From positions 1-38,662 of the IMG/VR virus record IMGVR_UViG_3300010153_000025: a stretch of 38,662 nucleotides of DNA. One strand, 5' to 3'. Below the pieces are notes generated by a model. That model searched no databases. It saw only the letters and a list, made by a program, of their open reading frames with translations, and had not been told where the DNA came from. This stretch comes from a virus. The position numbers were made by a program, and so were the translations under genes. Shown here piece after piece: positions 1,148 through 19,865 of the stretch (positions are counted from its first letter, which is position 1; every line of letters begins with the position of its first letter).

Positions 1148-1174
1148 AGGGGGAGTAATATCCCCCTTCTTTTT
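1148..1174 (+). terminator. strong rho-independent terminator
   Basis: A perfect 7-bp stem, AGGGGGA (1148-1154) with TCCCCCT (1161-1167), encloses the 6-base loop GTAATA and runs into TTCTTTTT. It lies 23 bases after the stop of the small SSB-tailed protein. It separates that transcript from the primase-helicase operon. Confidence 0.85.
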
Positions 1175-1183
1175 GGATATGAC

Positions 1184-1290
1184 ATGTTAAAATGTTAAAC
1201 TTGCGTGGCAATATAACAACTATAAAAAATAATCTATTCCTACTAAAACTCTTTACTACTATTCTTACTCTATTTTTAACATTTCAACAT
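1184..1290. repeat. inverted pair of tandem octamers in the main early gap
   Basis: ATGTTAAAATGTTAAA (1184-1199) is a perfect tandem of the octamer ATGTTAAA. Its reverse complement recurs at 1275-1290 (TTTAACATTTCAACAT) with one mismatch in 16. The result is four octamers, two facing two, around a 75-base A/T-rich spacer. The gap 1175-1353 lies between a terminator and the primase-helicase start and holds no gene. No TAnnTTTG box was found in it. The arrangement suits a regulator operator or replication-initiator binding sites. Confidence 0.6.
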
Positions 1291-1353
1291 AAAAGAATAG
1301 GAAAGATATATATAGTAAGGGTTTAGGTAAAATCAAATCAACATAATTGTAAC

Positions 1354-3765
1354 ATGGAAATAACAATATTTAAAGACATTAAGGATACAGCACAGCCTTT
1401 CTTTAGAGATGTGGCTATAATACTGGATAGAATAAAGGACGGAGCCTCCAGGGATATAGTAAAGGCAATACGAGACGAGAAGGACAAGGCTAAGCGAAAT
1501 GAACTAAAGCAGAAGCTACCGGCAGTATGCTTTAGTGGCAAGTTCACCAAGCGTAATGATGCATCGATCACTGAGCATAGTGGTTTGATCTGCCTGGACT
1601 TTGATGGGTATGATAACGACAAGACGATGCTGGAGGAGAAGGAGAAGCTAACCAAGGATCGATATGTATACTCAGTATTTATCTCTCCGAGTGGCCTGGG
1701 GTTGAAGGTGCTGGTCAAAATACCGGCAGAGGTAGATACTCATAAGAGTTTCTTCAACTCATTGCAGATGCACTTTGCTTCACCAAACTTTGATGAAACG
1801 TGCAAGAATATAAGTAGGGTTTGTTACGAAAGCTATGATCCCCTCATATACATTAACGAGCAGTCATCGGTGTTCAATCAGATAACCGAGGAGAAGTACC
1901 AGGTCAACACTAAGCACAAGGATGTGCAGACGATACCAATCACAGACGAGAATAAGATTGTAGAGATACTTATGAAGTGGTGGGAGCGTAAGTACGGCCT
2001 CAAGAGTGGAGAACGAAACCACAATGTGTACATTTTAGCCTCAGCTTTTAATGACTTTGGCGTTAACAAAACATTGGCCGAGTATATCATGTCCAACTTC
2101 GACTCCGAGGACTTCACTCAGGACGAGATCAAGCGAACCATTCACTCCGCATATGCCCAGGTGCAGAACTTTGGGACTAAGTACTATGAGGACGAGGAGA
2201 TCGTAAAGGATGTAAAGCAGAAGCTACGCAAGGGAGTGGCCAAGGGTGAGATAAAAAACCAATTGGAGGATCAGACCGAGGTTAACGATGTTATACTGGA
2301 CAATGTGATCCGAAGGCTGGAGGAGGAGCAAGACGAGCAGAAGTTTTGGACGAAGAGCGAGAAGGGTGTCATCAAGATAGTTCACATATCATTCAAGAAG
2401 TTCCTGGAGGACAATGGGTTTTACAAGTTTAATCCGGAGGGAAGCAAGAACTATGTGTTTGTTAAGGTGACCAACAACTTGATAGACCATACCTCAGAGA
2501 AGGAAATCAAAGACTTTATCTTAGACTTTCTGATCGACCTTGATGACATCTCGGTATATAATTACTTCGCTGAATGCACTCGATACTTCAGAGAGGAGTT
2601 CCTTACTTTGCTATCATCTATTGACGTTTTCTTTATCGAGGATACCAAGGATTCGGCATACCTATACTACACCAACTGTGCAGTTAAGATTACCCGTGAC
2701 AACATTGAGCCGATTGACTACCTTGACCTGGGTGGTTACGTTTGGAAGGATCATGTAATCGATAGGGTGTTTGACATCTGCGACGTTACGGACTGCGACT
2801 TCAAAACCTTCGTGTCCAACATCGCTGGATCAACAGACAAGAGAGTCCGATCGATGGAGTCTACTATTGGATTCCTGTTGCACGGATGGAAGAACCTATC
2901 TTACTGCCCGGCAACGATATTAAATGATGAGGTGATCAGCGACAACCCTGAGGGTGGCACCGGTAAGGGATTGTTTATGAATGGCATTGCTCAGATGAAG
3001 AAGCTCGTGGTTATAGACGGCAAGTCATTTAACTTCGAGAAGTCTTTCGCCTATCAGCTGGTATCCGCAGACACTCAGATCCTATGCTTTGATGATGTGA
3101 AGAAGCACTTCGACTTTGAGCGATTGTTCTCGGTTGTTACCGAGGGTTTAACGTTGGAGAAGAAGAACAAGGATGCGATCAAGATTCCTTTCAGTCGATC
3201 GCCAAAGGTGGCCATCACTACCAACTACGCCATCAAAGGTAAGGGTTCTTCATTTGAAAGACGTAAGTGGGAGCTGGAGCTAACTCAGCATTACACCAAG
3301 GAGTTTACACCGTTGGTTGAGTTTGGTAAGCTGATGTTCGGTGAGTGGGGTGACAATGAATGGTGTCAGTTCGATAACTATATGATTAGCTGTTTGCAGT
3401 TGTACTTAGACAAGGGATTGCTGAAGAGTGACTTCGTTAATCTTAAGATACGTAAGTTCTCTGCTGAAACATCGCATGAGTTTGCTGAGTGGTGTGGCGT
3501 TATAGGTGGTCAGATTAATGATAAGATACATAGCAAGGGTAAGATACATATGAATGATCTTTATAATGATTTCATTAATGATTATCCTGACTATGCACCT
3601 AAGGCCAAGATGACTATTAGTAGGCAGCGGTTTTCAAAGTGGGTGCTGGCGTACTCCAACTTCAAGCACGAGTGTCCACCGGTAAGCGGAAGAGATCAGT
3701 CGGGTAAGTGGGTTGAATTTGTCAACAAGCACTATTATGAAACGCAAAGTCAGATGCCACTATGA
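1354..3765 (+). CDS. primase-helicase (BT4734/VirE-N-like domain + SF3-type helicase)
   Basis: This 803-residue replication protein has an N-terminal domain (about 1-175) resembling the BT4734/VirE N-terminal family. That domain carries LICLDFDG (78-85), with the paired acids D82 and D84 expected of an archaeo-eukaryotic-type primase palm, and SPSGLGLK (111-118). A helical segment (about 205-275) resembles a primase C-terminal domain. The C-terminal half is an SF3/AAA-type motor: Walker A GGTGKG (534-539), Walker B ILCFDD (576-581), the sensor-like KVAITTN (618-624) and Arg-finger candidates R636/R637. The product would prime and unwind phage DNA. The next gene overlaps its stop by 4 bases (ATGA), so the two helicases are probably co-translated. 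The start is the first ATG after the repeat-rich leader. Confidence 0.85.
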   Translation: MEITIFKDIKDTAQPFFRDVAIILDRIKDGASRDIVKAIRDEKDKAKRNELKQKLPAVCFSGKFTKRNDASITEHSGLICLDFDGYDNDKTMLEEKEKLTKDRYVYSVFISPSGLGLKVLVKIPAEVDTHKSFFNSLQMHFASPNFDETCKNISRVCYESYDPLIYINEQSSVFNQITEEKYQVNTKHKDVQTIPITDENKIVEILMKWWERKYGLKSGERNHNVYILASAFNDFGVNKTLAEYIMSNFDSEDFTQDEIKRTIHSAYAQVQNFGTKYYEDEEIVKDVKQKLRKGVAKGEIKNQLEDQTEVNDVILDNVIRRLEEEQDEQKFWTKSEKGVIKIVHISFKKFLEDNGFYKFNPEGSKNYVFVKVTNNLIDHTSEKEIKDFILDFLIDLDDISVYNYFAECTRYFREEFLTLLSSIDVFFIEDTKDSAYLYYTNCAVKITRDNIEPIDYLDLGGYVWKDHVIDRVFDICDVTDCDFKTFVSNIAGSTDKRVRSMESTIGFLLHGWKNLSYCPATILNDEVISDNPEGGTGKGLFMNGIAQMKKLVVIDGKSFNFEKSFAYQLVSADTQILCFDDVKKHFDFERLFSVVTEGLTLEKKNKDAIKIPFSRSPKVAITTNYAIKGKGSSFERRKWELELTQHYTKEFTPLVEFGKLMFGEWGDNEWCQFDNYMISCLQLYLDKGLLKSDFVNLKIRKFSAETSHEFAEWCGVIGGQINDKIHSKGKIHMNDLYNDFINDYPDYAPKAKMTISRQRFSKWVLAYSNFKHECPPVSGRDQSGKWVEFVNKHYYETQSQMPL

Positions 3766-5409: not shown

Positions 5410-5725
5410 CTATTTCGCAGATGATGATTTTGTTATGGCGTTAAAAAAATTTAACACCAGGACAGCTATGAAGATTGCTAATTATATAGACGAAAGCATT
5501 TCTATATTCCCAACCAATGACCTTACCTCTACAATTTTAGGGGGAATGGTGTTTGAGAATACCGACAATCCTGTTACATTTGCCTTAGAAATAATAAAAG
5601 AAGACGGATCTCATCCAACACTAACAGATATCAAAAGCATATCAATGGATGAGTACCTTGATTTATACAACTTAAATTTAATTATAACGAATGGGAAAAA
5701 GAGAAGTACAGAAGGAGACACGTAG
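5378..5725 (+). CDS. unknown acidic phage protein
   Basis: This 115-residue, acidic protein has no recognised domain. A helical stretch at about 15-45 is followed by alternating beta-type segments (MVFENTDNPVTFALEII). It sits between the VRR-NUC nuclease and the DnaA-like protein and overlaps both, by 32 and 35 bases. A second in-frame ATG at 5435 would remove the upstream overlap at a cost of 19 residues, so the start is uncertain. Operon position suggests a replication or host-takeover accessory. Confidence 0.7.
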   Translation: MESEQKYIGDSYFADDDFVMALKKFNTRTAMKIANYIDESISIFPTNDLTSTILGGMVFENTDNPVTFALEIIKEDGSHPTLTDIKSISMDEYLDLYNLNLIITNGKKRSTEGDT

Positions 5726-6239
5726 TGCTGTTTGCGAATCTATATCTAAAGTGTTAGGTGTAGATATCCTGGACAAGCGCCGTAAAAGAGAGCTGATAAA
5801 TGGACGTATGATTTACTACGCTCTGTTGAGAGACATGAACTACTCCTGGACATCAATAGCGCGAAGCGTACATAAGAATCACGCCACTATTATTAACGCA
5901 TACAGAGCTTTTGAGGATTTGGTGTCTCATGATAGGGAGCTTCAATCTGATTACGATATGGTTAAGGCTAACTATTACGAGAGAAACAATGAACATCCCT
6001 TTCAGTACGTATCACGCATGCGCCTAATGGATGATGCTATAGATTTGGAAAAGCAAAATAAAAAACTTACATTACAGATAAACGAGCTGATGCTTGATAA
6101 GGAACAAAACGAAAAGTACTTACCGGTTCTTAATGTATTACATGCGCATAGCGGAGTGCTTGACGATGAAGCGATGGCGGAGGTTGGACGAAAACTAAAT
6201 CATATGTTAAATGGCTTATACAGTAAACGACATAGATAA
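5691..6239 (+). CDS. DnaA domain IV-like DNA-binding protein
   Basis: This 182-residue protein has an N-terminal half (about 12-77) resembling the C-terminal DNA-binding domain of DnaA. A helix with ISKVLGVDIL is followed by an RKREL-type basic stretch. GRMIYYALLRDMNYSW matches the DnaA pattern of 'aR..amyL.r..t..s'. HKNHATIINAYRAF (61-74) corresponds to the DnaA signature helix-turn-helix (RDHTTVLHA). No AAA+ domain is present. The remainder is a charged, probably coiled helix (about 105-140) that could dimerise. DnaA domain IV alone binds specific DNA boxes, so this is a candidate origin-recognition or regulatory protein. It overlaps both neighbours. Confidence 0.75.
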   Translation: MGKREVQKETRSAVCESISKVLGVDILDKRRKRELINGRMIYYALLRDMNYSWTSIARSVHKNHATIINAYRAFEDLVSHDRELQSDYDMVKANYYERNNEHPFQYVSRMRLMDDAIDLEKQNKKLTLQINELMLDKEQNEKYLPVLNVLHAHSGVLDDEAMAEVGRKLNHMLNGLYSKRHR

Positions 6240-7007: not shown

Positions 7008-7080
7008 GCCCCTGTAGTTAAACCGGATATAACGTTAGACTTCTAATCTTAAGTTCCAGGTTCGAGTCCTGGCGGGGGTA
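7008..7080 (+). tRNA. tRNA-Arg (anticodon UCU)
   Basis: The cloverleaf folds by hand. The acceptor GCCCCTG (7008-7014) pairs with CGGGGGT (7073-7079) with two G-U pairs, and the discriminator is A7080. The D stem GTTA/TAAC is perfect, with GG in the loop. The anticodon loop CTTCTAA (7040-7046) has TCT at 7042-7044, which reads AGA/AGG. The T arm is a perfect CCAGG/CCTGG with loop TTCGAGT. The anticodon stem has one T-T mismatch (7036/7050). No CCA is encoded. It would supplement host decoding of AGA/AGG codons. Confidence 0.9.
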
Positions 7081-7094
7081 CAAAATATCAGATC

Positions 7095-9094: not shown

Positions 9095-9330
9095 TGTTCT
9101 CTATAGATTATGTAAAGCGGCAGTGTCATGCCTGATTTATACACTAATATAATAGTATCTGTTGATGAATACAAATGGTACACGATGCACTCCCCTTCAA
9201 TACTTGCCACGGATCTATACCCATCATCCTGGCACGCACTATCTATCTCTGTAATTGGGGTTTCAAAGTACGGATGCTGAGCTGTGCAAGACAGGCAGCT
9301 CATTACTAATAATGTAAAGATGAGTTTCAT
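9091..9330 (-). CDS. small exported, probably lipoprotein (lysis cassette)
   Basis: This 79-residue protein has a short export signal, MKLIFTLLVMSCLSCTAQ. C12 or C15 could be lipidated (VMSC or LSC, Ser at -1, tolerated in lipoboxes). The remaining 60 residues are acidic and beta-rich with further cysteines. It begins on the stop of the giant gene (TAATG) and overlaps the M23 start. Its size, signal and position beside two cell-wall hydrolases suggest an outer-membrane lysis factor (o-spanin-like). This is inference, because no spanin partner was recognised. Confidence 0.75.
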   Translation of the reverse strand: MKLIFTLLVMSCLSCTAQHPYFETPITEIDSACQDDGYRSVASIEGECIVYHLYSSTDTIILVYKSGMTLPLYIIYREQ

Positions 9331-12300
9331 TATCTGCGTGTTGAACGCCCTCCCCTACCTGAACGACTTCCTCTATTGCCTCCTCTACCACCTGACGCTC
9401 CGGATGATTTTTTCTTTTTCCCTCCACCTGGTCGATAAGATGGGCTAATTCCCATAATAGTATATAGATCATCCATTTCTCCAGGATCTCCGCTTAATCC
9501 AGCATAATTGTATAGAGCCACAAACGGATCTAAATTTATTCCCAATAAAACCTCAGCCGGTTTAGTGAGATTCAATTCTTTTGTCTCCTCAGCATCTTTG
9601 ACTAACAATCTAAATATCAAAGAATATGGGTTAGGCTTTTCTCTAAATCTATATGGCTTGTCTTTTATCTTAGCTATTGCTTGCTGTGCACCATCTCCTA
9701 CTAAAGGAATCTGATAAATTAGATTCATACCCATTAAGGCTTCTCCTAATATATCTAACACCGCTTCCTTGTCCTCATCATCCCCATGTAGGCGTGCGAT
9801 GTTTGCCATCGTATAAAATAATACGTTAGCAACACCCAAGTTTAAAGTTACTGATCTTACATCCTTTATAACTTGGTTTCGACTAATCTTGCTCGACTTA
9901 CCGTCAGCAACAAGTTGTGCTGATTTCATGAGGTTAGTCATTGCCATCATTACTTTATTAAGCTGTAGTAAAGTAACACTACCAAACATTGTATATACTC
10001 TGATGACTTCAGTTTGAGACAACTGAATATTTGTTTTGTCTGCGGTTCTTCTCGACTGTTGAGTGGCATTGTAGTCAGCAAATATTCTCAATGCCTGATC
10101 CTGAGGCATACCATTTTCAATATTCCTGTAGTAAGTAGCCATAGCTGGCAATACTCCCGCTATATCACCCAATATAGTTGGTGATGCAGCAGCCATTCGT
10201 GTTGTGTTTATTGCCTGCCGATATTTTCTACTTGCTTTTGATACTGATTCAAATTTACGGAGCCTTCCTCCCGTTTCCAGACCATATACATCTCCCTTCA
10301 TACCTTGTTCCCAACGATCTCTAAAGTCAGGTGATAGATTATATGCATCTTTAAATACTGATCTAAAGTTGGCGAAAACTTTCAAGGTGTCAGCTGCGAA
10401 CCCGAGCATATCTACTCCGACTCTTCTCTTACCATCTTTGCTATATACATATTGTTCGTAGTTCTGTATAAAAGATGTAGCCTGCTTGGGTAGTTGAATA
10501 AGCTTGAACGATAAAACATACGAAGTATATCCTTGCAAAGCATTACCGATAACTTTGCTCGATATACTGCTGTTAAGTCCTGACTTAGGATTTATTGCAA
10601 TGTTTAATATATTCTTAGCAGAAGAGGTGATACCCGTTTCATCCATCAATGTTCTAACAGCGGGCACTTTAAATATATCATTTAGTATTTTGGTTCCTTC
10701 TGCATATGCTTTGAATCGCTCCATTTCATCTATGTATGTTTCTAATACATCAAAGAAATCTCTGTTTACTATTTCAACAACTCCATCCGTGTCCGTTCTT
10801 CTTTTAAAAGAACTAAAATATTCAGCGTTAAAAACGCCAGCAAAATCTCCATCTGAAACCAGGTCAGCAACATTCTCCCCTAATGTAGATGTAGGAAAAT
10901 AATTTGGTATAACAGCAAGGTTAACATCATTAACTTCAACATATACATCATCTATTGTTTGGTGGTATGAATTGCTCAACCACTCTACTACATTGCTAAT
11001 AAACTGAACCATCTGAGGACCTATCTCGTTTTCAATTTGATTTAGCACGTCATCAGTGAATCCCATTTTGTCAAGCTTATTCCGGACAATAGAGTTTCTA
11101 CTAAGGGCGTTTATGCTCATCAACTCGCCTACGGTCAAAGTGTTTTTCTTACCGTTTATAATAAACTCTCGTGCTCCTTGAGGTATTGACTTTATTAGGC
11201 CCTTATATCCACCCTCGATACCATCTACCTTATTAGCCAGATCATTTAGATCAACATCTCTAACTTTTTGAGTTCCCCTGATATGCTCTGTATGCATTTT
11301 GTTTACACGATTGTAAACATTTTCAGTAAAGAAATTATTGCCTCGAGGTAGGTTATCTATTAGATTCATTAAGGTATTGAGGTGAGACAAATGATTTTTA
11401 AACAACTCAGCAATCCCAATACCTGTTGTTAATGGATATTGTTTTACCCACTTATCTAACCCGGTCCATAGTTTTCCTTCATTGAAACTCTCCCATATGC
11501 TTCTCCGATCAAACTCTAATTGATTTTTATTCTTTAAATTACCTTGCTCATCAAAAAGTATAGGACGATCCTCCTTAATTTCTAAAGTTGCTTCGGTAGC
11601 CAATGCATCTCTACGATTTGCTCGTTCGAGTCTGTTAGACATTAGCTGTTTAATAGACTCTGATCTTACATCTTCAAGAGATTTTAAAAGTTCTCTTACT
11701 TGATCCACACTTTTATTCTCTATGTCAGCAAACAAATCTATAGCTAACATTTGATTGATTAAGGCATTCTCTCTTTGAGAAAGCTTTTCATTTTTACTCG
11801 CCTTATCAAGAGTTTCTTTTACATTTATTTTTTCTCCAGCTACTTCAACCTCTGGCTGCTGAAGCTTTTGAATTTTTTCCTGAAGCTTTTTCTGATTCTC
11901 AGCAACCACCTTGTCAGTCCTGTTCTGTGTTACTGATAAGTTTAAAATTGATCTAACCGCTGCAAAAAACTGCTGCCCTCTGGCATCAAGACCTTTCGAT
12001 CTTTCTTTGCCGGTTTTAGTTATTTGCTTAGATGCTTTTTTCTTTACTATATCGGTAATCTTTTTTATTAATACTTGCTTTTCTTTATTGTCAAGCATAA
12101 TTTGAACCTCACTTATAAATAAATCGAGAGTGGTTCTCTTTACCCTGTTTAGTTGAGTGAGCAATGAATTAACTTCAGCTCTACTAAATAAAACTTTGGG
12201 AAGATTTTTTGATATATAATTTTTTAATTCCTGCTTTACGGATTGCAAGTCTTTAGCACCCTTCGCTCTCTGGCGAATATCGCTTTTCATTTTTCGTATC

Positions 12301-15300
12301 TGAGCAGGTACGCCTTTAGGTAGCTTTTCTGTTGGAGCCTTTAACGATTCAGTAGTATCAACGTACAGTTTTTGTTGCTGAGTCGATCGAGTTGTTCTGC
12401 CTTTGTCGGCCAACTTTTGGTATTCAGGCTGAGCTTCTAAAAACAGAAGTGTTCGAGATTTTATTTTAGTCGGCGTTAGATCCTTGAGCTTTTTATTTTG
12501 TTCTCTTATTTCTCTATTAAGATCTTTGATCTCAGAAGTAAGTTGACTTTGTTTTTCTTTGTTTGCTTTCGTATCTGGCTTACCATCCAAAGCCTCGAGT
12601 CTTTCTGTAAGCTTCTCCTTCTTTGAAATGGAACTCTTGTTTTTCTTTTCAAGAGACTTACGTTCGCTATCTAAGTTCTTTTTGTACTCATTTATTTTTT
12701 GTAATAAAGAAATACCATCAGATATATTAATTTCCGCAAAGCTTCTCGGTAGTGCAGTTTCAAATTCAAGTTCTAAAAGAGCATTGGCCTGAGCTACAGA
12801 TAAGAATTTATCAGACTCTTTGTCTTTAATGCTTGTAGTCAACACCTCCCGTATTGCTGCGGCAGATATTTTTTTCATTTCGCGAGCTCTGTTAATTACA
12901 TCAATCGCGTTAGCTTCTTTACGAATAGATTTTTGAAGTCGCTCTGCTCCTTCAGTTAAATCATCCCGCTCGCTTCGTACATCCCTTTGACTATCGACTT
13001 CTCTTCCTCGTTCAGTACGTGATCGCTCATCACTTCGCTCATCTCTACGTACTCCTCGAATGTCGGATTCCGCTTCAATATCCCTTGTAACATCTGAAAG
13101 AAGAGATCCCGCCCAAGAGGGGTCTTGGATACCTCCTGCTCTGTCAACTGCTTGTTTTCTTGCTTCATCTATGGTTATTTTTCCTTGTGCATAATTACTA
13201 AATATATTTCGAACATCATTGACATTCTTCTTGCTATTCTTAAATGAGTCCGTAAATAGACCCCTGACAGCTTCCCATGTGACGCTCTGCATCTGCCTCG
13301 GCAATAGCCCTGTTCGCTTTGCTGCATCCGCGTAAGCATCTGCATAAGCATAGTAAACGCCACTAACACCAGCAGCATTTGAGCTGGATGCTTTCTTTGT
13401 CCCAAAATTCTGAGCTACCTCAATAGAGTTACCACTCAAAGGAAGCAATGTAGCTGCGGCAACAGCATGCGTGTCCATTGTAACCTCTCCCTCCTCTGAC
13501 ATAGGATCTACTATATTGTCGTAGAAGTTTCTAATTTTATGAGCCGTCCCAAGCTGAGTGGATATATTCTCAGGCGATCCATTGAGGTATATAGCAACAG
13601 CCTTACCTATCTCAGTGTAACTACCCCAAGCTACCTTTGCGTTGGTTCCGTCATTCTTCTTAGCAACACCCACTCGCTCACCGTCCGGACTTACTATCTG
13701 GTAATCCTTCTGTCCAGTAATTTCTTGAGTTGTTCTTAAGACATAAGGCTGATACTTTGGTTCCACATCCTTTAGCCTCTTACCTATAAGACCTTCCAGT
13801 TCAACAAGTAATTTTTCTGCATTAGCCTTGTTCTTCTTTCCTTTTTCTGTAAGACGTCCCTTGTTTTTCTTCAATGCCGCCTTAACAGCTCTTTCATTTA
13901 TCTCCTTTTGAGTGTCTAATGCTTCCTGTGTAAAGACAGGGTTGGTATCGTACTGCTCCAAAACAAGCTCAGCAAGTCGAACATTTTGATACCAATCTTT
14001 TTGCGGCGATAATGAAGCCAAGATACCTGAGACCTGCTCCAGAGATACGTTATGCTTTTCAGCTAATCCCTGAGCGATCTGGTTGGCACCATCATACCAC
14101 AAGGTAGATATCTCTCTGAACTCATCACCATATAGATCGTGAATGAATACCAGGTTGTCTGACACCTGCTTAACAAAGATGTCATATATCTCATCTGCTC
14201 TTTTAAGTAGAGCTCTACGTTTTGCCGGGCTCATCAGCCTCAACGCTTTCTCAGACTTAGGTATGGGGAGTGGCCTGAATTTTTTCGATCCCTTTACAAG
14301 ATCGAGCTCCCTAAGGAAGTTGGCGTTCTTTATAAATGTAAGTGGCGCAGCTTCCCTTACCTTAGCCACGGACATATTGTCCACTCCCTGCACAACTGGC
14401 TGCCCATCTACTGATCTTATAGACAAGCCCTTGGGTACCTTAGTGCCGGCAACATTTTTGCTTTGAACCTCGGCCGGAACAATCGATCCTCTTTGCATTC
14501 GACCCCTGCCTGTGGGTGGCTTATACATCTTACCTCTGCCATCACGTATGCTATATCCAAATCTCTCTTTCTTGAGATCATAGCCAAGCCTTCTTAGCTG
14601 AGGTCTTAATATACCTGGATTGATTTGCTCCGATAAAAATCCGCTTTCTTCTATGTTATACATAGCTGCAAGTCTCGCCACTTGTTGAGCGGGTGTTTGC
14701 TGCTGTCTTTCTTGTCCTTCTATCTGAGATTGTATAGTGCCTACCTCTGCCTCTTCTAAGGCCTTCCCTTCCTGTATACGCTGTGACACTACGTTAAGTA
14801 GATCGATAACCCCCTGATCAGAATCAATATTAAATATCTTGTCCAAACCAAACAATCGAGCAATAGATTCTATCCATTTTCGAATGGTGCTTTTCTCAGG
14901 CGCATTTAGTTTGGTATAGTTTTGAGATAACATACCCATTAACTCAGAGAGATATTCCTCGTCTTGGAACCTCTGATCATACTGAGCAATAAAATTATCT
15001 AACTCGGCTTGAACCGATTTATCCTTGACCGATTGCCTAACGGTCACTATCATTTTTTTAGTTGCAGCTTCTATTTTAGGATCAGAACCTATTTTGTTTT
15101 TTAGTAAAGCATGAAACGCTTCGTGAGCTGCAGTTCTATTGTTTGCCTTTACACCATTAATATGTATGGTATTTGTCCTTGGTATATATGCGCCTTGAGA
15201 ACCTTGAGCATTTTCGCTAACTGCATTGTTGTAAGATTGCTCGGAACGGTGATATATAAACTTAGTATCGGGCAATACTTTTGATATTGCTTTCGCTGCA

Positions 15301-18300
15301 TTTTTAGTAAGCTTGATTAAGTTGTTCTGCGACTCTGAAACTTTTTCTTCAACTCCTGTAATAGTTAAATTATCTGTCGATGTAGGAGCAGTGGCTCGCT
15401 GCATTCGAGTACCAGCTTGGAGCTTTTCATTAGCTTTTTTGAGATTGTTTATTTTTCTTTGTGATGCTCTGATATCACTTTTCTCACCACTTATATCCTC
15501 CTTATAACTCTGAATAAGAGCTTGTTGATCTTCTACAAAATCTTCTTGCTCGAATTTTAACTCTTCTCTCCTCTCTGCTTTTTCCTCCCTACTAATCTTC
15601 AGGTCTTTAATCGCCGCACGTTTAGCAGCAAAGTTCTTTTTCTCCTCTTTTGTATTCCCTTTCTCCAGCTCGATCTCCATCTCAAGGTCTTCAATCCTAT
15701 TTTCGCTATACGATATATCACTCTCTAAGCGGTCTATATCTTCTTGGTTCTCCTTAAGCTTTAGTTCGATTTCACGGGGAATAAATGGCTTGCTTTCCTT
15801 AGGAGCAGGAGCCTTCTTCTTAGGAGCAGGAGCCTTCTTCTTAGGAGCAGGAGTCTTCTTCTTAGGCTTAGGAGCAGGAGCTGCTTCAGTTACGGCAGGT
15901 TCGGCAGGAGATTTTTTTACTAAATTCTTTAGACTTGATTCAGCCTCTACAAGCTCAGCCTCATAGAATTTTATTGTTTCTTCCTTTTTGGAAATGAATG
16001 ATGGAAGTTCTTTAATTAGCTTTTCTATATAATCTTTTCTTAACTCTTTTTCTTCAGGGCTAAGGTCTTTATCTTCCTTAATCTTCGGTAGATTATCCTT
16101 AGCCTTTTGAACGAATGTTTTTCTATCCTCGATTTCTTCTTTTGATAATTGTATCTCACTTTTTGCCTTCCTTATATCACCTTCAAGTACTTCTTTAAAC
16201 ACAGCATCTCTAAACGATGTTGGCTTTACCTCAATCTCCTCAGCAACAGGTGCTGCCTCCTCAGCAACGGTAGCAGTCTCCTCAGTCACAGGTGCTGCTT
16301 CAGTGACGGCAGGCGCTGTTCGCTCTAACGGTACGAGATCTATTGTTTGCTTTCCCTTTTTCTCGAGCCTCTTATTAGCATCATTGACAAGGTCAATGAG
16401 CTTCTGCATGCCGTTCTCTTGGCTGGTAAGATCTTGTGAAAACGCCCCCTGGCTAAGCTCATCGCTTATAAACAGATCGAAAGTCATACCACCACCTGGC
16501 TCTATCAAATATTTTGTAAAGTTGGGGTCCACATGCTTTCTCCAAAGAGCAGCGAAAGTACGAGACCCTGCATCACCAAGTATGTTATATAAGATATCAT
16601 TAATGTAATCTTCACTATATGCCAAGCCATCTATTCCAGACCGTTGACGCGTCTCATACATAAACTCACGCTGCTCTTCGGTTAACTCAGCAGCAGGCGC
16701 TGCCTCAGTGGTGGTCTCGGTAACGGTGGTCTCTTCAGTGACAGGCGCTGTTCGCTCTAATGGTACGAGATCTACCGTTTGACCTCCCTTTTTAGCAATC
16801 TTCTTATTAGCATCATTGATAAAGTCGATGAGCTTCTGCATGCCGTTCTCATCTGCAGTCACATCTGTTGCAAAACCCCTATCGTAAATCATTTCCGAAA
16901 CAACATAGTCACTGAAATTTTTACCCCGACCTATTTGCAGGTCCCCTGTAAAGTAAGGGTCCACATGCTTTCTCCAAAGAGCATTAAAGCTACGAGTACG
17001 AAGCTCCCCGTATATGTTTTCTAATATGTCGCTAATATAATCTTCCCTATATGCCAAGCCATTCAATGCAGATTTTCTGTTCGACTCATACATAAACTCA
17101 CGCTCCTCATCGGTCAGCGGGCGATCTTCCTCGGTAACGACAGTCTCCTCGGTAACAGCAGGCGCAGCTTCAGTGGTAGTCTCAGCAACGGTAGTCTCTT
17201 CGGTTACAGCAGGCGCTGCTTCAGCTATACCAAGCTCTGCTCTAAGTGCCGCTGCTTCTTCACTTAGCGTAGACGGCGTTTCCTCAACTTGGACTTCGGC
17301 CTCAACCTCTGCGGTAACCGGCCCGGTGGCGTCTCCCTCTCCCACCGCTTCGCTATCTCTGGCAGGTTCTTGTACATCCACCGTCTCTGTGCTTGACTCT
17401 TGAATGGCATCTTGTGGTTTTACTATGTTAAAATCTTGATCTGTATCTATTATGCCAGATACCACATCAGTATCTGTAGACTCAGCAGGGAAGTCACCAA
17501 TTAAAGATGTAGAACCATCATCGTTTACAATGTCTAAACGAATACGGCCGCTTTCCTGAGTAGTCAACTTGACTTGCTTAGTGTTCCCGTCTTTATCTTT
17601 CCCTTCGTATATACGTACCGCTTCGGTCTCTGTAGTTACCTCAGTTGGCTCGTCAAGTATACTGTTTATCTGATCGTTTATTTCTTTTAGACGGCGCTTG
17701 CCTGCCTCAGTAGTGTTGCCACTTAAACCTTGTTTTTCAACTTCAAGTGGTACTATAGCATCTGCTTTATTGTTGTCTATAACACCTGCCTGAGCAAGCT
17801 CAGCTTTTATCTCAGCATTGTTGCGAACACGAGCCTTAGCATCTTCAGCTGCTGTACGTAGCTCAGGATCGTTTTGTATATCCAACTTAGTGCCTGCAAT
17901 ATCAGCATCCGTTCCTGTTTCTAACAATGATATAACTTGCTCCTGTGTAGCAACACCATCATTGATTTTATATTCGCCCTTATTTCTGGCATCCATTAAT
18001 CCGCGCGTAACCGTAAAAGGTGCGGTAGTAATACCACCCACAGTCCCCTCAAAAGCTACCTCAAGAAAATCATCCGCTTGACCGGCAACCTTCCTTCCTA
18101 AAAATTCACCCGTAGCTCCACCCGCACCCTCAACAACAGTACCAGCCAAACCACCTGCCAACTGAGATCCTGTTCTACCAGTAACTAAAGATGTTGCTTT
18201 CACACCTAATCCGGCAGTTAAACCTTCAATCGCACCTATGGTAAGTCCTCGACCTGTAGATTTCCATGTCAACCTATTTTGAATACCAGGCTGACTTAGA

Positions 18301-19865
18301 ACAGCCCTTACATTCTCTATTGTCATTGGAGTGTTTACTCCTATCTCTTCTTGAAGCAACTCAGCATAAGTAAGTGCTGATTCAAGAGCTGAAGACACTG
18401 CCCCTATGCCCAAAACTGCAGCTCCGCCAGGACCTGATACCAAAAAACCAGTACCTGCTGCTGCCGCTCCCGCCACAAGTGAGGCTGGATTAAACATTGC
18501 TGAGGCTGAAGAAACAAATAGTTGCGGAAATACTGAAGGGTTTGATTTAAATCCGTTCCAGAACCCTACAAGCCCGCCGCCCGATTCTTCATATATTTTA
18601 TTAAAGTCTTGCATTTCATCGGAAACTCCTGACTCAAGCATCCTGTCATAAGCCTCAATAAACTGCATAATATCAGCATCGGTCGCGTTAGGACCTTTAC
18701 GCATAAGAGCAATAGCATCATCCACCACAGCTCCCTGTGCCTGACCCTGACCCGCAGATCTATATATATCTCCTATAAAATTTGTAACAGTATTTTTGCC
18801 GAAAACATCTTCGATAAGTGTGTTGTCTTCTAAGCTAAATATACCAAGCTGCCGCTTTAGTTGATCCTCAGCAAACTCTTTCTCCTCTTCCTCAATTCGT
18901 TTCTGAACAGCTTCTTCAGAAGGATCGATCTTTGCAATGTCTGCAGCAGTTTGAGAAAATGTAGCATCAACAGCTGCCGGCTCAAAAGGAGATGGATCGC
19001 TTGGTGATTGCCTCCCAGCCAGCTCTTGAATAGTTATCTCGCGTTCTTCAGGTATTTCAAGGTCGGGTCTAACTACGCCTGTGGCATCTGCCGGAGCAGC
19101 ATCTGGCTGTATTATTTCCTCAGCATCAGGCTGACCAAGCTCTATAAGTTTTGTTCGAGCTTCAGCTTCTGCCTGCTCTTTACGTGCTTGCTCCAAGTCG
19201 GCGATATCTTGCTCCGTCAATGTAGGAACATCCATTGAAGTAGTTACCCTTGGTCTACTTATGGGTGAAGGAGGAAATGTTTGCTGTTCTTGAACAGGCT
19301 CTATTTGGCCAATTGTTTTTGTTATTTCAGATACGGGGTCTGTATCAACCACTAATCCTGGCTGAGAAACTGTCGTTCTATCAAGCTCAAAAGGAATTAC
19401 CTGAAACGCGTCATATGGCTTAATAGGCTCAAGCACTCTTCGCCCACCAAACTGTGGCTGTTCAAAAGTTAATCCTGGCTGAGAAACTGTCGTTGCATCA
19501 CTCTCATAGACATCAAACTGAGGTAGCTCAACCTGGACCGGTTGCGAAGTACCCGAAGTAGTAGTTTCTTGAGGCTGTTGAGATTCGGAAGCCGATGCTT
19601 CTTCGGTTGCAGTAGAAGCGGACTCGTCTTTTTTTTTTGACGCACCTACCTCAGAAAGAAAAGCATCCTCAGACAGACTTGACTTATCTTTCAGCTCATC
19701 CGGCATTAATGATGGATCTTTAGATGATAGGTATCCATATATGTCAGATGCATATCCTGGATCTTTCATTGAAGAAATAAAAGCATCCTTAGACAGACTT
19801 GACTTAAATCTTACATCTTGAGATGATAAGTAATTATATAAACTAAGTATATATTTTTCGTCCAT
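9330..19865 (-). CDS. giant polyvalent internal virion/ejection protein
   Basis: This 3511-residue protein occupies the place of T7-like gp16, downstream of two core-type proteins and upstream of lysis. In order it shows: duplicated 40-residue N-terminal units (1-75); Pro/Gln/Glu-rich linkers; Gly/Ala-rich hydrophobic segments (about 446-501 and 540-600) suited to membrane insertion; two ~130-residue tandem repeats (about 915-1040 and 1059-1185); coiled coil; a KKKAPAP linker (about 1326-1359); an HExxH centre, HEAFH (1581-1585), with E1637 or E1641 as third ligand; a segment with SLSPQKDW (about 1952) and TMDTHA (D2131) like HhH-GPD glycosylases; an RDERSDERS-type patch; long coiled coils; a helical C-terminal third; and an Arg/Gly-rich tail. 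It is probably injected with the DNA. The domain functions are inferred from motifs only. No lytic transglycosylase or RNA polymerase signature was found. Confidence 0.85.
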   Translation of the reverse strand: MDEKYILSLYNYLSSQDVRFKSSLSKDAFISSMKDPGYASDIYGYLSSKDPSLMPDELKDKSSLSEDAFLSEVGASKKKDESASTATEEASASESQQPQETTTSGTSQPVQVELPQFDVYESDATTVSQPGLTFEQPQFGGRRVLEPIKPYDAFQVIPFELDRTTVSQPGLVVDTDPVSEITKTIGQIEPVQEQQTFPPSPISRPRVTTSMDVPTLTEQDIADLEQARKEQAEAEARTKLIELGQPDAEEIIQPDAAPADATGVVRPDLEIPEEREITIQELAGRQSPSDPSPFEPAAVDATFSQTAADIAKIDPSEEAVQKRIEEEEKEFAEDQLKRQLGIFSLEDNTLIEDVFGKNTVTNFIGDIYRSAGQGQAQGAVVDDAIALMRKGPNATDADIMQFIEAYDRMLESGVSDEMQDFNKIYEESGGGLVGFWNGFKSNPSVFPQLFVSSASAMFNPASLVAGAAAAGTGFLVSGPGGAAVLGIGAVSSALESALTYAELLQEEIGVNTPMTIENVRAVLSQPGIQNRLTWKSTGRGLTIGAIEGLTAGLGVKATSLVTGRTGSQLAGGLAGTVVEGAGGATGEFLGRKVAGQADDFLEVAFEGTVGGITTAPFTVTRGLMDARNKGEYKINDGVATQEQVISLLETGTDADIAGTKLDIQNDPELRTAAEDAKARVRNNAEIKAELAQAGVIDNNKADAIVPLEVEKQGLSGNTTEAGKRRLKEINDQINSILDEPTEVTTETEAVRIYEGKDKDGNTKQVKLTTQESGRIRLDIVNDDGSTSLIGDFPAESTDTDVVSGIIDTDQDFNIVKPQDAIQESSTETVDVQEPARDSEAVGEGDATGPVTAEVEAEVQVEETPSTLSEEAAALRAELGIAEAAPAVTEETTVAETTTEAAPAVTEETVVTEEDRPLTDEEREFMYESNRKSALNGLAYREDYISDILENIYGELRTRSFNALWRKHVDPYFTGDLQIGRGKNFSDYVVSEMIYDRGFATDVTADENGMQKLIDFINDANKKIAKKGGQTVDLVPLERTAPVTEETTVTETTTEAAPAAELTEEQREFMYETRQRSGIDGLAYSEDYINDILYNILGDAGSRTFAALWRKHVDPNFTKYLIEPGGGMTFDLFISDELSQGAFSQDLTSQENGMQKLIDLVNDANKRLEKKGKQTIDLVPLERTAPAVTEAAPVTEETATVAEEAAPVAEEIEVKPTSFRDAVFKEVLEGDIRKAKSEIQLSKEEIEDRKTFVQKAKDNLPKIKEDKDLSPEEKELRKDYIEKLIKELPSFISKKEETIKFYEAELVEAESSLKNLVKKSPAEPAVTEAAPAPKPKKKTPAPKKKAPAPKKKAPAPKESKPFIPREIELKLKENQEDIDRLESDISYSENRIEDLEMEIELEKGNTKEEKKNFAAKRAAIKDLKISREEKAERREELKFEQEDFVEDQQALIQSYKEDISGEKSDIRASQRKINNLKKANEKLQAGTRMQRATAPTSTDNLTITGVEEKVSESQNNLIKLTKNAAKAISKVLPDTKFIYHRSEQSYNNAVSENAQGSQGAYIPRTNTIHINGVKANNRTAAHEAFHALLKNKIGSDPKIEAATKKMIVTVRQSVKDKSVQAELDNFIAQYDQRFQDEEYLSELMGMLSQNYTKLNAPEKSTIRKWIESIARLFGLDKIFNIDSDQGVIDLLNVVSQRIQEGKALEEAEVGTIQSQIEGQERQQQTPAQQVARLAAMYNIEESGFLSEQINPGILRPQLRRLGYDLKKERFGYSIRDGRGKMYKPPTGRGRMQRGSIVPAEVQSKNVAGTKVPKGLSIRSVDGQPVVQGVDNMSVAKVREAAPLTFIKNANFLRELDLVKGSKKFRPLPIPKSEKALRLMSPAKRRALLKRADEIYDIFVKQVSDNLVFIHDLYGDEFREISTLWYDGANQIAQGLAEKHNVSLEQVSGILASLSPQKDWYQNVRLAELVLEQYDTNPVFTQEALDTQKEINERAVKAALKKNKGRLTEKGKKNKANAEKLLVELEGLIGKRLKDVEPKYQPYVLRTTQEITGQKDYQIVSPDGERVGVAKKNDGTNAKVAWGSYTEIGKAVAIYLNGSPENISTQLGTAHKIRNFYDNIVDPMSEEGEVTMDTHAVAAATLLPLSGNSIEVAQNFGTKKASSSNAAGVSGVYYAYADAYADAAKRTGLLPRQMQSVTWEAVRGLFTDSFKNSKKNVNDVRNIFSNYAQGKITIDEARKQAVDRAGGIQDPSWAGSLLSDVTRDIEAESDIRGVRRDERSDERSRTERGREVDSQRDVRSERDDLTEGAERLQKSIRKEANAIDVINRAREMKKISAAAIREVLTTSIKDKESDKFLSVAQANALLELEFETALPRSFAEINISDGISLLQKINEYKKNLDSERKSLEKKNKSSISKKEKLTERLEALDGKPDTKANKEKQSQLTSEIKDLNREIREQNKKLKDLTPTKIKSRTLLFLEAQPEYQKLADKGRTTRSTQQQKLYVDTTESLKAPTEKLPKGVPAQIRKMKSDIRQRAKGAKDLQSVKQELKNYISKNLPKVLFSRAEVNSLLTQLNRVKRTTLDLFISEVQIMLDNKEKQVLIKKITDIVKKKASKQITKTGKERSKGLDARGQQFFAAVRSILNLSVTQNRTDKVVAENQKKLQEKIQKLQQPEVEVAGEKINVKETLDKASKNEKLSQRENALINQMLAIDLFADIENKSVDQVRELLKSLEDVRSESIKQLMSNRLERANRRDALATEATLEIKEDRPILFDEQGNLKNKNQLEFDRRSIWESFNEGKLWTGLDKWVKQYPLTTGIGIAELFKNHLSHLNTLMNLIDNLPRGNNFFTENVYNRVNKMHTEHIRGTQKVRDVDLNDLANKVDGIEGGYKGLIKSIPQGAREFIINGKKNTLTVGELMSINALSRNSIVRNKLDKMGFTDDVLNQIENEIGPQMVQFISNVVEWLSNSYHQTIDDVYVEVNDVNLAVIPNYFPTSTLGENVADLVSDGDFAGVFNAEYFSSFKRRTDTDGVVEIVNRDFFDVLETYIDEMERFKAYAEGTKILNDIFKVPAVRTLMDETGITSSAKNILNIAINPKSGLNSSISSKVIGNALQGYTSYVLSFKLIQLPKQATSFIQNYEQYVYSKDGKRRVGVDMLGFAADTLKVFANFRSVFKDAYNLSPDFRDRWEQGMKGDVYGLETGGRLRKFESVSKASRKYRQAINTTRMAAASPTILGDIAGVLPAMATYYRNIENGMPQDQALRIFADYNATQQSRRTADKTNIQLSQTEVIRVYTMFGSVTLLQLNKVMMAMTNLMKSAQLVADGKSSKISRNQVIKDVRSVTLNLGVANVLFYTMANIARLHGDDEDKEAVLDILGEALMGMNLIYQIPLVGDGAQQAIAKIKDKPYRFREKPNPYSLIFRLLVKDAEETKELNLTKPAEVLLGINLDPFVALYNYAGLSGDPGEMDDLYTIMGISPSYRPGGGKKKKSSGASGGRGGNRGSRSGRGGRSTRR
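12956..13168 (-). CDS. possible overlapping gene nested in the giant ORF
   Basis: A second reading frame on the same strand encodes 70 residues starting MKQENKQLTEQEVSKTPLGR. It has the composition of an ordinary soluble helical protein (FFQMLQGIL, PTFEEYVEMSEVMSD). In the main frame the same bases encode a biased Arg/Asp/Ser/Glu-rich patch. AGGA lies 13 bases before the ATG. Chance is a real possibility, because this is one of several short second-frame ORFs in a 10.5-kb gene. Confidence 0.25.
   Translation of the reverse strand: MKQENKQLTEQEVSKTPLGRDLFFQMLQGILKRNPTFEEYVEMSEVMSDHVLNEEEKSIVKGMYEASGMI
16313..17122 (-). repeat. two in-frame ~375-base tandem repeats within the giant gene
   Basis: The stretch of about 16748-17122 and the stretch of about 16313-16692 encode two diverged copies of one domain. 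Both begin LT(D/E)E(E/Q)REFMYE, pass through LWRKHVDP and ENGMQKLID, and end LVPLERTAP. Acidic VTEETT-type linkers follow each copy. The copies have diverged at many positions, so the duplication is old or under selection. Confidence 0.85.
19653..19806 (-). repeat. 34-base direct repeat, 120-base period, 5' end of giant gene
   Basis: Copies at 19653-19686 and 19773-19806 match at 32 of 34 bases and are exactly 120 bases (40 codons) apart. They encode SSLSKDAFIS and SSLSEDAFLS, each preceded by a YxYLSS(Q/K)D unit. The protein therefore begins with two copies of a 40-residue helical module. Confidence 0.85.

Follow-up and report, generated by a model that had tools for sequence, protein, structure and literature searches.

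Opposed box arrays before the primase-helicase gene of a Bacteroidota phage group: candidate iterons of the primase-helicase and a putative replication origin

The IMG/VR virus record IMGVR_UViG_3300010153_000025, analysed here over its whole length of 38,662 nucleotides (nt) and referred to below as the window, encodes a terminase and long leftward open reading frames (ORFs) of virion type. Ahead of a rightward gene coding for a primase-helicase, and directly after the terminator at 1148..1177, begins an array of short repeated boxes which is the subject of this work. Pfam attributes to the primase-helicase a BT4734-like N-terminal domain (BT4734-like_N), a PriCT_1 domain and a DUF5906 helicase part, and the protein ends in a predicted winged helix; a PrimPol-like match to the primase part stayed below the cut-off.

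The array opens with a perfect tandem pair of boxes, arm 1 (1184-1199, ATGTTAAAATGTTAAA), and the pair at 1275-1290, arm 2 (TTTAACATTTCAACAT; reverse complement ATGTTGAAATGTTAAA), is identical to it in inverted orientation at 15 of 16 positions. The arms lie 75 nt apart, and the A+T content of the spacer between them is 73%, against 58% for the whole window. They form the sole 16-nt inverted repeat of the window with at most one mismatch and arms within 150 nt; dinucleotide shuffles lead one to expect 0.07 repeats of that quality and spacing per window, and shuffling the gap only gave a comparable repeat in 1 of 2,000 cases. A first-pass annotation of this DNA had described a tandem pair facing its inverted copy over 75 A/T-rich bases behind a terminator. 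Coordinates and shuffles confirm the opposed pairs, and a terminator-like stem-loop does precede them. The same annotation spoke of two plus two octamers, which holds for the arrangement but neither for its completeness nor for the unit: a third set of boxes was missed, consisting of TCAACAT at 1338-1344 and a degenerate GTAACAT at 1349-1355, and what repeats is the 7-mer RTGWYRA. The boxes of this third set have the orientation of arm 2, are 11 nt apart and reach into the primase ATG at 1354 (Table 1). An Rfam scan of the gap matched no RNA family.

Table 1. Features of the box array, of the primase-helicase gene and of the second array in relatives.
Feature	Sequence	Position	Strand	Basis or remark
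Intrinsic terminator of the upstream 83-amino-acid gene	window	1148..1177	+	stem 1148-1167, T-rich tail; order shared with relatives
Box 1, ATGTTAA, arm 1	window	1184..1190	+	sequence
Box 2, ATGTTAA, arm 1, period 8	window	1192..1198	+	sequence; spacing in relatives
AT-rich spacer between arms, candidate melting region	window	1200..1274	.	73% A+T
Box 3, ATGTTAA, arm 2	window	1276..1282	-	sequence
Box 4, ATGTTGA, arm 2	window	1284..1290	-	sequence
Box 5, ATGTTGA, third cluster	window	1338..1344	-	sequence; relatives
Box 6, degenerate ATGTTAC, overlaps primase start codon	window	1349..1355	-	sequence; 11-nt period in relatives
Primase-helicase, 803 amino acids, proposed box binder	window	1354..3765	+	Pfam, PHROG 28855, covariation
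C-terminal domain, residues 664-803, predicted winged helix	window	3343..3762	+	AlphaFold2, mean pLDDT (predicted local distance difference test) 83
Codons of wing residues 780-785 (R-D-Q-S-G-K), with putative specificity-determining R780, Q782, K785	window	3691..3708	+	covariation
Second array beside GroEL/GroES-like genes	L086	6298-6491		reverse complement
Second array beside GroEL/GroES-like genes	L089	6576-6746		
Second array beside GroEL/GroES-like genes	L090	4376-4543		
AATCAATAAGTTA-like motif right of arm 2	L092	6845-6960		reverse complement
AATCAATAAGTTA-like motif right of arm 2	L094	5740-5860		reverse complement
AATCAATAAGTTA-like motif right of arm 2	L291	365-500		

Eighty relatives were fetched from viral contigs and more were obtained with other queries; related sequences are also present in one Cytophagales and one Flavobacteriales metagenome-assembled genome and in the GenBank phage MW202828. 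The box pattern was defined after inspection of the sequences, and the counts given here concern loci selected for recognisable boxes. Before the primase gene these relatives share one order: a terminator, one or two plus-strand boxes, about 75-80 AT-rich nt, one or two minus-strand boxes, and then a third cluster of up to three minus-strand boxes adjoining the ATG. Spacing in the third cluster is exactly 11 nt in 34 of 34 cases, while adjacent arm boxes are spaced by 8 nt in 30 of 50 cases, by 9 nt in 14 and otherwise in 6, and the inner box-to-box distance across the spacer is mostly 82-85 nt. This layout is kept down to about 70% primase identity with varying box letters, one phage having ATGTTAA and others GTGTTGA, ATGTCGA, GTGTCAA, ATGACGA, ATGATAA or further forms. 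Conservation of the boxes, which had been put forward as a check on the array, is seen in their arrangement and not in their letters, which change in concert. Within a phage, arm 1 and arm 2 match at 2.15 of three variable positions, against 1.51 between phages, and the arms match the third cluster at 2.23 positions within a phage, against 1.72 between phages; neither within-phage value was attained in any of 5,000 permutations. That the boxes of one phage vary together suggests that one DNA-binding protein reads all of them.

Every column of 12 protein families encoded around the array (2,473 columns, 36 dereplicated loci) was correlated with the letters of the boxes. Box position 1 is tracked best by residue 782 of the primase-helicase, at which Asn occurs with G (r 0.92, against 0.66 for the next column). 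Position 5 is tracked best by residue 785 of the same protein, Arg occurring with C and Lys with T (r 0.79, against 0.67 for the next column), and position 4 by residue 780, where Lys accompanies A (r 0.94), tied with residue 475 because the K780/A4 combination is confined to one clade. All three columns fall in a single stretch of six residues, the wing of the primase-helicase. In 1,000 permutations of the box labels, a null that ignores ancestry, the maximum over all columns came up to the observed one 0 times for position 1, 6 times for position 5 and 4 times for position 4. Phylogenetically independent pairs, drawn from a tree built from primase residues 1-700 only, follow the association of N782 with G1 in 9 of 9 cases and that of R785 with C5 in 5 of 6. 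The rules for positions 1 and 5 are also obeyed by most of the newly fetched loci (L107, L203, L209, L210, L212, L217, L236, L272), and MW202828, with a GRDMDGRW wing and ATGTCGA boxes, agrees with the code. A code for box position 6 was discarded: its high correlations are spread over many proteins and point to a clade signal. On this covariation, the primase-helicase is well supported as the putative binder of the boxes, and a role of wing residues 780, 782 and 785 in setting the letters accepted at box positions 4, 1 and 5, respectively, is likewise supported.

The location of these residues is consistent with such a role. An AlphaFold2 model of residues 664-803, run with 42 relatives, contains helices at 733-743 and 757-772 and strands at 777-781 and 784-788, and puts the three residues 780, 782 and 785 on the wing, a beta-hairpin, of a confidently predicted winged helix. 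Structural matches of this domain include many kinds of winged helices with Z of about 5-6; the Z scores obtained with VIA-align, 5.0 for the origin-binding domain of P4 (1ka8) and 5.3 for the DNA-binding domain of RFX (1dp7), are tied with those of many other winged helices and so indicate the fold only. A PDB sequence search with the C-terminal half of the primase-helicase found no match, and a Pfam search with the C-terminal domain returned nothing credible.

In most of the complete relatives the box array occurs twice. Its second copy is found where a leftward block of GroEL/GroES-like and virion genes diverges from the rightward early block, some 10 kb upstream of the copy before the primase gene (9.4-10.5 kb in three genomes measured). 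The two copies are oriented alike in the DNA, and in those three genomes their arm spacings are equal to within 1 nt. In the genome of the window, the second copy would fall outside the contig, past its start; a 97% relative (L004, G001) has it. Fifteen genomes with a second array were recognised by the arm-pair pattern and four more via single-copy hits or a conserved motif, giving 19 in total. The second array was not used in finding the code, and in it the code holds at positions 1 and 5 for each of the 19 genomes (for position 5, the 16 with R780 were judged), an agreement to be read with the shared ancestry of the box letters of both arrays in one genome. At position 1, G occupies at least 86% of the boxes in N782 genomes (5/5) and at most 17% in all others (14/14); at position 5, C is found in at least 83% of the boxes in R785 genomes (7/7) and in at most 33% in K785/R780 genomes (9/9). 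G019 is the one genome that breaks the rule for position 4. AATCAATAAGTTA or a close variant lies on the right of arm 2, followed in most genomes by a plus-strand box, at near-constant distances. The exact consensus for integration host factor (IHF), WATCARNNNNTTR, occurs in 15 of the 19 second arrays, three of which (G008, G019, G021) were located through the motif. The same motif was considered and rejected as a part of the primase-side element, being exact in only 12 of 64 loci against 1.5 expected; in the window, the stretch from arm 2 to the ATG showed none.

We propose, with a probability of about 0.7, that the primase-helicase of the phage itself, a self-recruiting initiator, recognises the boxes as its iterons and that they form a replication origin of the kind known from phage-inducible chromosomal islands (PICIs) and Staphylococcus aureus pathogenicity islands (SaPIs). 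The C-terminal winged helix of the protein would bind the 7-mer RTGWYRA, and the opposed pairs around the AT-rich stretch would allow two sets of subunits to assemble head to head. The assembled protein might then melt the AT-rich spacer, load as helicase rings resembling those of superfamily 3 (SF3) and prime DNA synthesis, so that the array would act as an origin. The second array, where the DNA may be bent at the IHF-like motif, may be the main origin, and the primase copy a second origin or an accessory site comparable to crr of P4. The third box set, whose 11-nt period runs into the start codon, would let the primase-helicase repress its own gene; the position of boxes 5 and 6 is suggestive of an initiator acting on its own promoter, and the array before the primase gene probably also has this autoregulatory function. 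More tentatively, and at somewhat less than even odds, a widespread Bacteroidota phage group may have two copies of a PICI-like origin served by one primase-helicase, with a three-residue wing code (780 to 4, 782 to 1, 785 to 5) that has been repeatedly rewired and a primase-side copy that doubles as a feedback operator of the initiator gene. The first-pass annotation had suggested a replication origin or an autoregulatory operator with a DnaA-like binder; its iteron-like boxes are strengthened by the conserved geometry, the concerted variation and the covariation with the primase-helicase, whereas its DnaA-like binder is not supported and GC skew lends no support to an origin at this copy.

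Several observations weigh against this proposal. GC skew is unchanged at the 1184-1290 copy, where it had been offered as a check for an origin. Its sign changes close to the second copy, some 10 kb upstream, at a place where the genes also switch direction; a change there and not at the primase copy speaks against the latter as the main origin. As an origin locator, GC skew was set aside, since it is confounded by gene direction. The known PICI origins are found directly downstream (3') of rep, in contrast to the array here, which lies 5' of the primase-helicase gene. One of the six independent pairs (L015/L008) contradicts the rule for position 5, the rule for position 4 is based on a single clade and is broken by G019/L045 (R780 with A4), and mixed boxes occur in L176, L179 and L191. 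No such boxes were found before the primase gene in a distant clade (L033, L053, L081 and others), and the helicase core is poorly predicted by AlphaFold2, the alignment being shallow.

The strongest alternative, which we regard as unlikely, is that the array is an operator only, the bound primase-helicase repressing or activating transcription (of the primase gene here, of the leftward GroEL and late genes at the other copy) while replication starts elsewhere. Boxes 5 and 6 running into the start codon would suit an operator, as would the way each copy follows directly on a terminator and heads a gene block, and the missing skew break at the primase copy. Yet the two copies share their DNA orientation and arm spacing in spite of oppositely directed transcription next to them, the putative binder is a replicative primase-helicase, and paired inverted sets with an AT-rich core and a fixed spacing exceed what an operator needs.

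Far less probable is binding by a DnaA domain IV-like protein acting as a DnaA-type initiator or regulator. Each phage does encode two such DnaA_C-like proteins in the same module, one on either side of the primase module, namely a protein of 182 amino acids (window 5691-6239), which the first-pass annotation had favoured as binder, and an upstream paralogue of 98 amino acids (L004 5433-5729). Neither has columns that track the box letters: for position 1 their best |r| values are 0.51 and 0.37, against 0.92 for primase residue 782, and over positions 1, 4 and 5 the best values range from 0.37 to 0.62, against 0.79-0.94 for the primase wing. Their covariation is no better than background, which makes binding by them less likely.

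We give about equally little credit to the view that the inverted arms form an RNA hairpin, or a cruciform, regulating primase expression. The arms vary together and could pair in either strand (z -3.1, -3.6), but the third-cluster boxes, direct repeats without a pairing partner, take part in the same concerted variation, a second copy of the same design exists where the neighbours are transcribed oppositely, and the box letters track a DNA-binding wing. A chance product of an AT-rich gap, for all the AT-richness of the region, is practically dismissed by the rarity of such repeats in shuffled windows and by a geometry conserved in dozens of relatives.

Some further features of these genomes were recorded. 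A distant clade (L053, L145, L065, L068, L081-L083) has long terminator-like stem-loop inserts with large loops upstream of the primase gene instead of boxes; no Rfam match was obtained in the five such loci scanned. In four other loci (L052, L056, L057, L069), TGGAAT-type repeats with an 11-nt spacing precede the primase ATG and the wing ends in GRY; these could possibly represent the same system with a different box. In the window, a tRNA-Arg (tct) gene is located at 7008-7081, between the rightward and leftward gene blocks, and the block of virion-type genes includes a leftward ORF of 3,511 amino acids at 9330-19865.

For a family of Bacteroidota phages, the present analysis puts forward a candidate initiator together with its sites and the residues that would set its specificity, and natural protein pairs allow the proposed residue-by-base recognition code to be tested directly. 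It would extend to free-standing phages an origin layout that has been described as exclusive to PICIs, which bears on the source of satellite replication modules, and it raises the question of why one phage should maintain two arrays some 10 kb from each other. Initiators of PICIs and SaPIs are self-loading helicases, sometimes fused to a primase, whose C-terminal domain recognises iterons (PMC6092414, PMC7581432), as is the case for the Rep protein of SaPIs (PMC7581432). The system described here resembles them in its two sets of putative iterons around an AT-rich core and, as judged from covariation only, in an initiator helicase that reads iterons through its C-terminal domain. It differs in belonging to Bacteroidota phages with structural genes of their own and not to satellites (which carry int and a master repressor, without virion genes), in the duplication of the array about 10 kb away, and in the third box set with its 11-nt period abutting the initiator start codon.

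The alpha protein of P4 combines helicase and primase in one protein and binds origin repeats through a winged helix (PMC4234260). The primase-helicase shares with it the union of a primase, an SF3 helicase and a C-terminal winged helix, which is here an AlphaFold2 prediction with a putative origin-binding role; its likeness to 1ka8 is limited to a Z score equalled by many others, and sequence similarity is undetectable. The primase of P4 alpha is of TOPRIM type, in contrast to the BT4734-like/PrimPol-like primase part found here. P4 also has a second binding region, crr, which is distant from ori and needed in cis, and the second array would give these phages, too, two separate genomic regions of putative binding. 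In SCCmec elements (staphylococcal cassette chromosome mec), the D5-type helicase Cch2 binds repeats next to its own gene with its C-terminal domain (PMC7581432). A helicase C-terminal domain and repeats adjoining its gene are likewise the features proposed here, but Cch2 uses three direct iterons of 5 nt located downstream of the gene, and an inverted second set is not required. Iteron plasmids with an autoregulated Rep, of the pSC101 and R6K type, have initiator sites both at the origin and at the promoter of the initiator gene; their Rep is not a helicase and recruits DnaB, whereas the putative initiator here is itself helicase and primase. With its non-satellite setting, an array upstream of the initiator gene, a non-TOPRIM primase and a duplicated array, the proposed system would thus work like those of PICIs and P4 without being a member of either.
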